A stretch of 64,000 nt of DNA from Stigmatella erecta (GTDB lineage Bacteria > Myxococcota > Myxococcia > Myxococcales > Myxococcaceae): assembly GCF_900111745.1 (NCBI RefSeq), contig NZ_FOIJ01000002.1:62001-126000 (forward strand), read 5' to 3'. The notes below the pieces were generated by a model. It had not been told where the DNA came from and ran no database searches. It saw only the letters and a list, made by a program, of their open reading frames with translations. Position numbers and translations under genes: made by a program. Positions 29,655 to 33,970 of the stretch are shown here, in pieces; the stretch's first letter is position 1, and each line of letters begins with the position of its first letter.

Positions 29655-31109
29655 TCAGGCCACCTCTAACGGGGAGCTGTCGTTGCCGTCCGCCTTGCGC
29701 TGCTTCATGGTGCGGCCGGCCACCTCGTACTGCTTGAGCAGGCGGCGGAAGTTGGAGCGGTCCACCCCGGCGGCGCGCGCGGCGCTGGAGACGTTGTTGT
29801 TGTTCTTCTCCAGCAGCGCCGTGAGGTAGCGCCGCTCGAAGGCGCGCATCGCCAGGCGCTTGGCCTGGGCGTACGGCAGGTGCGCCAGGCTGAACACCTC
29901 CACGGGCGAGCCGGCCTGCGGGGCCTCCTGGAAGCCCGGCGGCAGGTCCTCCACGTCCAGCACCTCGTTGGAGGTGAGCACCACGGCGCGCTCGATGACG
30001 TTCTCCAGCTCGCGCACGTTGCCCGTCCACCGGTTCACGGTGAGCGCCTCCATGGCGCGCGGGGTGAAGCCCGTCACCTTCTTGTCCAGCTTGGCCGCGT
30101 ACAGCTTCAGGAAGTGGTGCGCGAGCAGCGGCACGTCCTCCGGCCGGTCGCGCAGCGGCGGCAGGTCGATGGTGATGACGTTGAGGCGGTAGAAGAGGTC
30201 CTCGCGGAAGCGGCCCTGCTCCTTGGCGCGCGTCAGATCCACGTGCGTGGCGGCGATCACGCGCACGTCCACCTTCACGGGCTCGTTGGCGCCCACGCGC
30301 TTCACCTCGCCCTCCTGCAGCACGCGCAAGAGGCGCACCTGGGTGGCGGGCGGCACGTCGCCGATTTCATCCAGGAAGATGGTGCCGCCGTCGGCCGCCT
30401 CGAAGAGGCCCTTCTTGTTGCCGGTGGCGCCCGTGAAGGCCCCCTTCATGTGGCCGAACAGCTCGCTCTCCAGCAGCGTCTCGGTGAGGGCCGAACAGTT
30501 CACCGCGACGAAGGGCTTGTCCTTGCGCGCGCTGCGGTAGTGGATGGCGCGGGCCACCAGCTCCTTGCCCGTGCCGCTCTCGCCCTGGATGAGCACCGTG
30601 GCGGTGGAGTGGCTCACCGTCTCCACCAGCTTGAAGACGGCGCGCATCTGCGAGGACTGGCCGATGAGGTCCTCGAACTGGCTGCGCGCGGTGAGCGCCT
30701 CCTCCAGCGCCCGCGTCCGGTCCTTCAGCGCCTTGCGCTCGGCGGCCTTGCCCACCGTGAGGCTCAGGTCGTCGATGTCCTCGAAGGGCTTGGTGAGGTA
30801 GTCGTACGCGCCGGCCTTCACCGCCTCCACCGCCGTCTCCACCGTGGCGTAGGCGGTCATCATGATGACCTCCACGTCGGGCCGCTCGGCCTTGATGGCC
30901 TTGAGCAAGTCCATGCCGGACAGGTGGGGCATGTTGATGTCCAGCACCGCCACGTCGATGGACGGATCCTTCGCCGCCGTCAGCCCTTCCACCGCATCGT
31001 CGATGGCGACGATGGGATACCCCTCGCGCTGGAGAATCGAGGTGACGGCCTTGAGGACTACGGGGTCATCGTCCACCACGAGGATCTTGGCGCGTTTGGG
31101 CTGGTTCAC
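29655..31109 (-). CDS. NtrC-family sigma-54-dependent response regulator
   Basis: A 484-residue activator. The receiver domain has VVDDDP and phospho-acceptor Asp57 (VAVLDINMP). The AAA+ domain has Walker A GESGTGKELVARAIH, the sigma-54 contact loop GAFTGA, and Walker B GGTIFLDEIG. The C-terminus is a Fis-type HTH (NNNNVSSAARAAGVDRSNFRRLLK). All functional motifs for sigma-54 activation are present. The start codon overlaps the upstream kinase stop (GTGA), so the two are translationally coupled cognate partners. A sigma-54 promoter precedes the kinase gene, suggesting autoregulation. Confidence 0.95.
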   Translation of the reverse strand: MNQPKRAKILVVDDDPVVLKAVTSILQREGYPIVAIDDAVEGLTAAKDPSIDVAVLDINMPHLSGMDLLKAIKAERPDVEVIMMTAYATVETAVEAVKAGAYDYLTKPFEDIDDLSLTVGKAAERKALKDRTRALEEALTARSQFEDLIGQSSQMRAVFKLVETVSHSTATVLIQGESGTGKELVARAIHYRSARKDKPFVAVNCSALTETLLESELFGHMKGAFTGATGNKKGLFEAADGGTIFLDEIGDVPPATQVRLLRVLQEGEVKRVGANEPVKVDVRVIAATHVDLTRAKEQGRFREDLFYRLNVITIDLPPLRDRPEDVPLLAHHFLKLYAAKLDKKVTGFTPRAMEALTVNRWTGNVRELENVIERAVVLTSNEVLDVEDLPPGFQEAPQAGSPVEVFSLAHLPYAQAKRLAMRAFERRYLTALLEKNNNNVSSAARAAGVDRSNFRRLLKQYEVAGRTMKQRKADGNDSSPLEVA

Positions 31110-32674
31110 GGCAACCTCTCAAGCTGCAGCGGGATAGGGAGAAAAACGGTGAAGCGGGAGCCATGGCCGACCTGGGTATCGACCTGGAAGACGCCGCCAT
31201 GGTCCTGCACGATGCGGTAAGCAATGGACAGGCCAAGGCCTGTGCCCTCGCCAGGCGGCTTGGTGGTGAAGGACGGCTCGAAGATGCGCGGCAGGTGGCG
31301 CTCTTCGATTCCGGTGCCCGAGTCGGAGACGGCGAAGAAGCACCGGTCCCCCTCGCGCCCCGTGTCGATCTTCAAGGTGCCCTCGGCGCCCGGGAGCGCC
31401 TGGAGGCCGTTCTGCAAGAGGTTGAGCACCACCTGGGACAGCTGCGCCGGGTCCCCGAAGAGCTTGGGCAGGCCACTGGCCAGGTTCAGCTCCAGCGTCA
31501 CCCGGGGGTTGGACTTGAGCTGGGCCTTGAAGAGCACCGCCGCGTCCTCCACGCACTTGGACAGCTCGAAGTGGCGGCGGTCCTCCACCTTGGAGTGGCG
31601 GCTGAACTTCAGCAGGCTCTCGACGATGCGCTTGCAGCGCAGCGCGCTCTCCTCGATGAGATCCAACGACTCGCGGTCCGCCTCGGAGCGGCCCAGGTCG
31701 CGCTTCATGAGCTGCGCGAACGCGAGGATGCCGCCCAGCGGGTTGTTGATTTCATGCGCCACGCCGCCCGCCAGCTGCCCCACCGCCGCCATCTTCTCCG
31801 TCTCGATGAGCCGCTTGGTGAGCGAGTACTCCTCGGTGACGTCCCGGTAGGTGCACACCACCCGGCCCTCGCCGGGCATGGGGTAGGCGGCCACCACGAA
31901 GGTGCGCCCCTTCTGCTGGATCTCCGAGCGCGCCCCCTTGCCCGTCTCGAGCGCGGAGGGCAGCGGGCAGCCGACGCACGGCGAGTCCCGGCCGAAGAGG
32001 TACTGGAAGCAGTTGACCGCCGAGGCGGTGGCTCCGTCCCCGGAGGCCGCCACCTTCAGGTAGGCGAGGTTGGCGCGGCGCACCGTGTAGTCGGTGCCCT
32101 GCATCACCGCCAGGGGCGTCTCGATGCAGTCGAAGGTCTGCTCCCAGTCGCGCTTGGCCTGGCTGAGCATCAGCGTGCGCGTCTCCACGCGCGCCTCCAG
32201 GTCCGCGTTGAGCCGCTTGAGCTCCGCGTTCTGGTCCTGCGTCATGCGGTGCAGGCGCTCGTTCTCCGCCAGGAGCGCGTACTGCTCGAAGGCGCTCTTG
32301 ACGGTGAGCACCAGGTGGCTGTCGTTCCACGGCTTGGAGATGAAGCGGAAGATCTCCGAGCGGTTGATGGCCTCCTCGATGGCCGTCTGGTCCGCCTGCC
32401 CGGTGAGCATGATGCGCTGGGCGCGCGGCACCTGCTCCTTCACCCGCGCCAGGAACTCCACCCCGTTCATCCCCGGCATCCGGAAGTCCGAGATGACCAC
32501 CTGGGGTAGGAACTGCTCCAGCCGCTTCAGGCCCTCCTCGGCGTCCGTGGCGGTCTCGATGTCCCAATCGCCCCGCCTCAGCACCCGCCGGATGGACTTG
32601 AGGATGTTCTCCTCGTCGTCCACCAACAGCAGCCGGCCGCGAGCCCCCGCCTCCTGTGTGTGCGCCAATCCCAC
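31106..32674 (-). CDS. Receiver-PAS-histidine kinase with a Cys-rich PAS segment
   Basis: A 522-residue cytosolic protein with no membrane segments. An N-terminal receiver has LLVDDEENI and phospho-Asp in VVISDFRMPGMNG. A coiled coil leads to a PAS-like domain carrying NCFQYLFGRDSPCVGCPL, a C-x11-C-x2-C pattern. The kinase core has EMAAVGQ-like H-box KMAAVGQLAGGVAHEINNPLGGIL, an N-box NLLQNGLQA, G1 DSGTGI and G2 GTGLGLSI. The GTG at 32674 is preferred because AGGTGG lies 8 nt before it; another GTG at 32686 sits inside that site. It is the first gene of a two-gene operon with the NtrC-type regulator. Confidence 0.92.
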   Translation of the reverse strand: MGLAHTQEAGARGRLLLVDDEENILKSIRRVLRRGDWDIETATDAEEGLKRLEQFLPQVVISDFRMPGMNGVEFLARVKEQVPRAQRIMLTGQADQTAIEEAINRSEIFRFISKPWNDSHLVLTVKSAFEQYALLAENERLHRMTQDQNAELKRLNADLEARVETRTLMLSQAKRDWEQTFDCIETPLAVMQGTDYTVRRANLAYLKVAASGDGATASAVNCFQYLFGRDSPCVGCPLPSALETGKGARSEIQQKGRTFVVAAYPMPGEGRVVCTYRDVTEEYSLTKRLIETEKMAAVGQLAGGVAHEINNPLGGILAFAQLMKRDLGRSEADRESLDLIEESALRCKRIVESLLKFSRHSKVEDRRHFELSKCVEDAAVLFKAQLKSNPRVTLELNLASGLPKLFGDPAQLSQVVLNLLQNGLQALPGAEGTLKIDTGREGDRCFFAVSDSGTGIEERHLPRIFEPSFTTKPPGEGTGLGLSIAYRIVQDHGGVFQVDTQVGHGSRFTVFLPIPLQLERLP

Positions 32675-32708
32675 TCGCAGTCCCACCTATCTTTCGATGT
32701 CGAACATT

Positions 32709-32724
32709 TGCAATGACGTGGCCA
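32709..32724 (-). promoter_or_regulatory. Sigma-54 (-24/-12) promoter of the kinase/NtrC operon
   Basis: The minus strand reads TGGCCACGTCATTGCA. It has the invariant GG and GC dinucleotides with exactly 10 nt between them, plus TGGC and TTGCA blocks that match the consensus. The predicted start is near 32698, leaving about 24 nt of leader with AGGTGG correctly placed for the GTG at 32674. Confidence 0.75.
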
Positions 32725-32835
32725 GCCGCGTCTTTTTAGACCCTTGGGCCAAGCCATTGATTCTCATGTACTTTCAATTTCGTACGCTGACCAGAACATG
32801 GGTCAACTCATACCCAGCACTGACAAACGGGTAGC

Positions 32836-32878
32836 AAATGACCCCCCTTCCCTGGGGGGTAAATGACCCGGGTCATTT
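32836..32878. promoter_or_regulatory. Palindromic cluster upstream of the sigma-54 promoter (possible enhancer sites)
   Basis: A perfect 18-bp palindrome AAATGACCCGGGTCATTT occupies 32861-32878. Next to it is a stem ACCCCCC/GGGGGGT (32841-32860), itself preceded by another AAATGACCC (32836-32844). A weaker related site, GGGTCAACTCATACCC, lies at about 32800-32815. The perfect palindrome is about 165-180 nt upstream of the predicted sigma-54 start, the usual distance for an NtrC-type enhancer. It also overlaps the stop codon of the diguanylate cyclase gene, and the GC stem could serve as its terminator. Confidence 0.55.
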
Positions 32879-33841
32879 CTCGTCAACACCCTTAGACTCC
32901 CATCCCCGAGACGCGGAGTGAAGCGGAATGGGTGAGTGCAGACAGACCCTGTTACGGCCCTCACGCTTGGCCCGGTACAGGGCCTCGTCGGCGGTCAGCA
33001 GCAACTGTTCGGGGCTGAGCACGGTGCGGTGGGGAAAGCCGGAGACGCCCAGGGAGGCCGTCATCCGCAGCGTGCCCCCCTCCCCCATGGGCTGGCTGGC
33101 CACACCTTTCCACACCCGCTCGGCCACGGTGATGGCGCCTGCCAGGTGGGTGCGCGGCAAGAGCACGGCGAACTCCTCGCCCCCGTAGCGGGCGACGATG
33201 TCCGTCTCGCGCACGTTCTGCTGGAGGATGCGCGCCACCTCCACCAGCACGGTGTCCCCCACCGGGTGCCCGTGGCGGTCATTCACCTCCTTGAAGAAGT
33301 CCAGGTCCAGGAGGATGAGGCACAGCGCATCGTCGTAGCGCTGGGCGCGGCGGAACTCCTCGCGCAGCCGCTCCTGGAAGTAGCGGTGGTTGTGCAGCTG
33401 GGTGAGCCCATCGAGCACCGAGAGGTGCTGCAGCTCCATCACCTGCGCGGCCAGGGTGGAGAGCGTGTGGTGATTGGAGAAGCAACGGTGAATGCGGGCC
33501 CGCAACTCCTCGGTGTCCCAAGGTTCCGCCACCACCTCCACGCCCAACCGGAGCACCTCCAGGCGCGTGGCGCGGGCCTCCTGGGGGGCCACCACGAGCA
33601 CGGGCGCTCCTCGGCCGGGCGCCTCCACGTCCATGAAGCGGCGCACCAGGGAGAGGTCCGCGGGCGTCTCGGGGCCCAGGCAGAGGATGACGAGATCCAC
33701 CTCGGAGGCCAGCCCCGGCACGCTGGGAGCCGGGGGCACCACGCGCAGCACGAAGCCCTCGGGCGTCAGGCTCTGGACCAGCTTCGCCGCCGTCGACCGG
33801 GAATCATCCACCACCAGCAAGGCGAAGGGCTTCTCTCCCAC
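32873..33841 (-). CDS. Diguanylate cyclase with degenerate receiver domain
   Basis: A 322-residue protein making c-di-GMP. The C-terminal GGDEF domain has an intact RYGGEEFAVLL active site, an inhibitory RETD I-site five residues upstream, and the LDLDFFKEVND metal region. The N-terminal receiver keeps VVDDSRS, but the phospho-acceptor position reads VDLVILCLGPE, with Cys where Asp is expected, so control by phosphorylation is doubtful. The GTG at 33841 (MGEKPFALLVVDDSR) is preferred; an alternative start 81 nt upstream adds Arg-rich sequence without homology. It reads in the same direction as the downstream kinase operon. Confidence 0.9.
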   Translation of the reverse strand: MGEKPFALLVVDDSRSTAAKLVQSLTPEGFVLRVVPPAPSVPGLASEVDLVILCLGPETPADLSLVRRFMDVEAPGRGAPVLVVAPQEARATRLEVLRLGVEVVAEPWDTEELRARIHRCFSNHHTLSTLAAQVMELQHLSVLDGLTQLHNHRYFQERLREEFRRAQRYDDALCLILLDLDFFKEVNDRHGHPVGDTVLVEVARILQQNVRETDIVARYGGEEFAVLLPRTHLAGAITVAERVWKGVASQPMGEGGTLRMTASLGVSGFPHRTVLSPEQLLLTADEALYRAKREGRNRVCLHSPIPLHSASRGWESKGVDEK

Positions 33842-33970
33842 GGTGCCCCCATCGAATGAACGGCGCGGCAAGCTAGCACGGGGCTCGCGCGGGGAGCGAC
33901 CCTGACGATTGCGTCCCCCCACTGGCCTCTGTTACCCAGCCTCCAGAATCAACCGTCACGAGGTCCATCC

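Follow-up and report, generated by a model that had tools for sequence, protein, structure and literature searches.

The region upstream of the hsfBA operon in the window (the whole stretch of 64,000 nt from Stigmatella erecta that was analysed) probably serves as the upstream activating sequence of the hsfBA sigma-54 promoter, with HsfA autoregulating hsfBA from an enhancer built of paired dyads. An earlier note on this DNA had proposed that an 18 bp perfect palindrome, together with related repeats, is an enhancer for the NtrC-type regulator. This idea was right in kind but wrong on which repeat matters most: the conserved element is a pair of 16 bp dyads closer to the promoter, with the consensus GGGTCA-N4-TGACCC.

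The hsfBA locus and its repeats

Three genes are carried on the minus strand: a GGDEF (diguanylate cyclase) gene (32873..33922; Pfam GGDEF, 4.7e-47), a kinase gene (31106..32686; receiver domain at the N-terminus, HisKA, and HATPase_c according to Pfam), and a gene for an NtrC-type regulator (29655..31109; receiver, sigma-54 interaction domain, and Fis-type HTH according to Pfam). The ORFs for the kinase and the regulator follow each other in this order, overlap, and form one operon. The encoded proteins are 79% (kinase) and 90% (regulator) identical to those from M. xanthus locus L081. HsfB has been described as a kinase with a response regulator domain at its N-terminus, and the mutations HsfB Q98stop, HsfB Q177stop, and HsfA T288A have been reported (PMC9109919). 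Because the M. xanthus orthologues have the three residues affected by these alleles (Q98 and Q177 in the kinase, T288 in the regulator), the pair in the window is, judged by its sequence, HsfB-HsfA.

The recognition region of HsfA, GVDRSNFRRLL(K/R)QY(E/D)V, shows almost no variation among the 50 family loci where the match reached this region (out of about 58-60, L005-L024 and L064-L101 with duplicates included; the other matches ended early, at contig ends or at the end of the available stretch). A whole Myxococcus-type GGDEF-hsfB-hsfA locus (L084; kinase 78%, regulator 91% identical) was encountered in BNCN01000001.1. The title of this record, "Comamonas sp. KCTC 72670", looks wrong given such a locus.

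Directly before the kinase start is a −24/−12 (sigma-54 type) element with GG-N10-GC spacing, assigned as the hsfBA promoter (TGGCCACGTCATTGCA, 32709..32724, minus strand; −12 GC at 32710-32711). All repeats listed in the earlier note are present upstream of it: a looser site (GGGTCAACTCATACCC, 32800-32815), a second AAATGACCC (32836-32844), and the 18 bp perfect palindrome (AAATGACCCGGGTCATTT, 32861-32878), which is the only match in the window at up to three mismatches and overlaps the TGA stop codon of the GGDEF ORF. The distance to the promoter had been given as 100-180 nt, close to the 97, 126, and 159 bp measured from the −12 GC to the three site centres. The point that had been missed is that the two "lesser" repeats are each one 16 bp interrupted dyad. 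Site 2, the former looser site, is proximal to the promoter (GGGTATGAGTTGACCC on the minus strand, 32800..32815; it is its centre that is 97 bp from the −12 GC). Site 1 is distal (GGGTCATTTGCTACCC on the minus strand, 32829..32844), includes the second AAATGACCC, and is 29 bp away from site 2. Each dyad differs from the consensus at 2 of 12 positions.

The palindrome on its own is not remarkable since, judged from resampled sequence (mean of 50), 0.72 perfect palindromes of at least 18 bp are expected per window, and 1 was found. Of 200 resampled windows, 1 also packed four exact copies of a half-site (GGGTCA/TGACCC) into 80 bp, even though half-sites are fewer over the full length of the window (25) than in resampled ones (mean of 43).

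Conservation of the dyads and of the palindrome

Two sets of loci were compared. From the first set, 24 of 30 loci were used (L005-L028), the remaining 6 being weaker matches; from the second set, 38 of 79 were used (L064-L101), the rest having mostly less than 50% identity. These 62 loci were reduced to 49 non-redundant ones by removal of L025-L028 (from other families, with a kinase identity of 40-48%), L101 (the kinase match begins at residue 223), and 8 duplicate regions.

Two 16 bp dyads GGGTCA-N4-TGACCC precede the −24/−12 element in 48 of the 49 loci (at most 6 mismatches in 24 positions), with L091 as the sole locus devoid of the dyad pair, and only 2 of 2009 shuffled or reversed regions do equally well. 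The dyads are spaced by 29 bp in 40 loci, by 30 bp in 6, and by 31 bp in 2. The outer columns of the dyads mostly carry 1.2-2 bits of information; columns 6-9 of site 1 carry less than 0.2 bits, and its column 10 favours T. All 49 loci have the −24 GG and the −12 GC at a fixed spacing, which the search itself required. In the loci L025-L028, the dyad pair is not clear and just weak or single dyads were seen; conservation of the operator is therefore shown for the family only.

The distance from the centre of site 2 to the −12 GC falls into three classes, 76-77 bp (2 loci), 85-89 bp (37 loci), and 96-97 bp (9 loci), with no values in between. This placement agrees with that expected of activator sites at a sigma-54 promoter, namely inverted repeats in register about 70-200 bp upstream. 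Such helix-turn distance classes are as predicted for looping from one face of the helix; no significance is claimed for them, and independent spacing events are few because related species share changes. The proposal of an enhancer for the NtrC-type regulator is well supported by the conservation of sequence, spacing, and helical register relative to the −24/−12 element.

The narrow promoter-distance classes also bear on a rival reading in which the repeats act in RNA, as a hairpin or terminator for the GGDEF gene upstream: the distance from the stop codon to site 1 ranges from −10 to 65 bp in those loci where the frame could be followed. In its favour, the repeats of the window begin at the stop codon, and a fold of −35.6 kcal/mol was computed for the minus strand, but the z-score is only −1.47 (17 of 200 shuffled sequences fold equally well) and no terminator-like site was found on the minus strand at the repeats. 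We have rejected this explanation as extremely unlikely on account of the weak fold z-score, the lack of a terminator-like site, and the variable stop codon distance.

The palindrome behaves differently from the dyads. Its 12 bp core (TGACCCGGGTCA) was detected upstream of site 1, allowing for up to one mismatch, in just 14 of 49 loci, which are the eight closest ones (L005-L012), L013, L067, L068, L071, L073, and L085. A similar string in L023 is simply the end of site 1. The same search did not detect the core in the loci from M. xanthus and Archangium, which have the same operon, an absence that by the earlier note's own yardstick counts against the palindrome; the two dyads are kept in relatives with this operon. 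The first half of the palindrome is degraded in M. xanthus, and the two halves are separated by two to four bases in the Corallococcus loci (by one in L075). In 9 of the 14 loci, the core supplies the TGA with which the GGDEF gene ends, and in L009-L012 it is 25-39 bp beyond the stop codon (the frame could not be followed in L067). The conservation of the core is therefore due partly to the stop codon and partly, in L009-L012, not.

The palindrome was the title element of the earlier note, and in a rival reading it would itself be the principal operator, with a secondary role for the remaining copies. Its perfect symmetry, the retention of its core within one mismatch in the eight closest loci, and its placement in L009-L012, which the stop codon does not dictate, would agree with such a role. 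We nevertheless consider this very unlikely, given how few loci have the core, its coincidence with a stop codon in most of these, the bases inserted between the halves in Corallococcus, and a varying distance to site 1 (start to start, 31 bp in L005-L008, 26-27 bp in L009-L012, and 20 bp in the other six).

We thus read the palindrome as an added, lineage-specific pair of half-sites next to the conserved dyads. A more specific option, to which we assign limited credence, is that HsfA reads two geometries, the convergent 16 bp dyads as the conserved core enhancer and a back-to-back arrangement TGACCC-GGGTCA that would tune hsfBA output. The back-to-back form might then have arisen where the diguanylate cyclase gene has its 3′ end, with the stop codon as part of the material, and the lineages having it might be the group of the window and some Myxococcus.

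Related dyads at published HsfA targets and across genomes

The 48 loci were used to train a weight matrix (median training score 17.6, 5% point 8.0), which was scanned over 55.5 kb of regions around lon and PilY1-family genes, which were picked as published targets. A later addition, L221, overlaps L161 and extends the scan to where the second pilus operon begins. Only two sites in these 55.5 kb score at least 10. HsfA has been reported to bind the promoters of pilY1.1 and pilY1.3 but not that of pilY1.2 (PMC9109919). The first site (AGGTCTCTTGAGACCC, score 14.3) is intergenic in M. xanthus and precedes genes for a minor pilin, a cytochrome c, and a PilY1 protein with DUF4114, a gene set which fits the description of the pilY1.1 cluster (PMC13190605). 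The second site (GGGTCCATTCGGACTC, score 12.2) precedes the genes ahead of a PilY1 protein which has a DTSGSM motif and lacks a DUF4114 match; we take this to be pilY1.3, based on the vWFA description in PMC13190605. Related dyads thus precede two published HsfA targets, which also speaks for an enhancer of this regulator.

Because shuffled sequence of the same size yields 1.05 sites scoring at least 12.2, the strength of the pilY1 dyads is in their position and conservation. The position of the dyad is unchanged across the 9 aligned pilY1.1 promoters; its score is 10.5-14.3 in 7 of them and poor in the other 2 (L207, L208). The form AGGTCATC(C/A)ATGACCC is present in two loci that are more distant and carry pilX and tfcP; two others (L211, L212) score low. 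GGGTC-N6-GACTC is kept in 9 of 9 aligned pilY1.3 promoters and is missing from three more distant matches. The dyads start 149 bp (pilY1.1) and 236 bp (pilY1.3) before the first likely ATG. The published gel-shift fragments cover 120-150 bp upstream of the start codons (PMC9109919), so that the pilY1 dyads may fall outside these fragments.

Weaker dyads (scores 7.4-13.3) are found in other genomes, equally far ahead of pilX homologues that have no tfcP (L213, L214, L218-L220) and probably belong to another pilus cluster. As HsfA was reported not to bind pilY1.2 in M. xanthus, these dyads are counted against the HsfA link.

Another published HsfA target is lonD; which of the lon genes represents lonD is our assumption. 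No HsfA-type site scoring at least 10 was found in any of the six lon regions. Weak sites (6.7-8.9) are present in 4 of the 6, and L154 and L157 have none scoring 6 or more. The best sites score 8.9 (genome of the window) and 8.5 (G005), both about 650 bp upstream, followed by 7.1 (L159) and 6.9 (L155).

The lon genes without a good dyad upstream, and pilY1 dyads that are possibly outside the gel-shift fragments, would be accounted for if the dyads were bound by a different transcription factor which controls hsfBA, with HsfA binding elsewhere. However, the dyads recur at hsfB, pilY1.1, and pilY1.3, the very set reportedly bound or controlled by HsfA, and their position fits a sigma-54 activator. 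We therefore regard a different factor as unlikely and retain HsfA as the candidate protein.

Genome-wide, a strict paired pattern was found in 13 of 39 genomes, in 12 of these at hsfB, with 0 matches for the control. It occurs away from hsfB at two places (G014 contig 24 and G020 contig 14); several genomes having hsfB (G001, G006, and G022 among them) escape this pattern because a base departs. A pattern combining a dyad with a sigma-54 element matched at hsfB in 11 of 13 genomes and at 28 places in total, compared to 58 control matches, and is therefore informative only through its recurring location. The single dyad (up to 2 mismatches) was discarded as an enriched genomic motif, having 215 matches compared to 422 for the reversed-pattern control. 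The palindrome core (up to one mismatch) was likewise dropped, with 36 matches compared to 28 for the control; two further exact copies of the 12 bp core are both within long open frames.

A few individual places may be mentioned. In G020, a second paired dyad away from hsfB is located at 1501-1547 of L063 (GGGTGTTGTGTGACCC and GGGTCATTCATGACCC, scores 12.8 and 20.6). In G000, G004, and G005 (L197, L188, L190), the dyad GGGTTGC(A/G)(A/G)GCGACCC (score 9.3-10.0) and a −24/−12 element precede an apparent lipoprotein gene, a possible further HsfA target. In G017 (L177), a GGGTAGGGAGCGACCC dyad (score 11.2) and a −24/−12 element precede a single-domain receiver-like ORF of 134 aa.

Proposed mechanism and comparison with known systems

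Taken together, we consider it likely that the region is an ordinary but clean autoregulatory sigma-54 enhancer. HsfA dimers would occupy the two 16 bp dyads, in which the half-sites are one helical turn apart and the centres 29 bp apart, and would assemble into an ATPase oligomer. This oligomer would contact RNA polymerase-sigma-54 at the −24/−12 element via DNA looping, and the promoter would open. HsfA phosphorylated by HsfB (a predicted phosphotransfer) would thereby lead to more HsfA synthesis. The palindrome further upstream, as a lineage-specific extra pair of half-sites, may hold more HsfA.

This offers GGGTCA-N4-TGACCC as a precise candidate operator for HsfA and predicts autoregulation of hsfBA across Myxococcaceae. 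The same candidate operator would link hsfBA to the two pilus-tip operons which HsfA reportedly balances. The helix-turn spacing classes may serve as a natural experiment on how a sigma-54 activator loops DNA.

Among the listed matches on HsfA, HsfB, lonD, pilY1, TGACCC-Myxococcus, and HsfA-Stigmatella, the titles and abstract openings do not describe the paired-dyad arrangement. Ueki and Inouye 2002 and Volz et al. 2012 are said to be the sources on HsfBA and the HsfA consensus; the paired architecture may be unreported or may already be contained in these. In general, an NtrC-type upstream activating sequence has a pair of inverted repeats some 100-140 bp ahead of the sigma-54 promoter. The region in the window has the same layout of two inverted repeats but differs in its predicted recognition sequence.

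In print, a consensus for HsfA and a putative binding site in PhsfB are already mentioned (PMC9109919, legend of figure 3). The M. xanthus system described there has the orthologous kinase with an N-terminal receiver and the orthologous NtrC-type regulator, in the same order as in the window. The paired spacing, the helical register, and the palindrome are features of the window without mention in the portion of the PMC9109919 text available to us. The sites for Nla28 from M. xanthus (PMC7910581) are likewise repeated half-sites for a myxobacterial enhancer-binding protein upstream of −24/−12 elements; their half-site, CT(C/G)CG(C/G)AG, is arranged in tandem and is unlike the sequence in the window.
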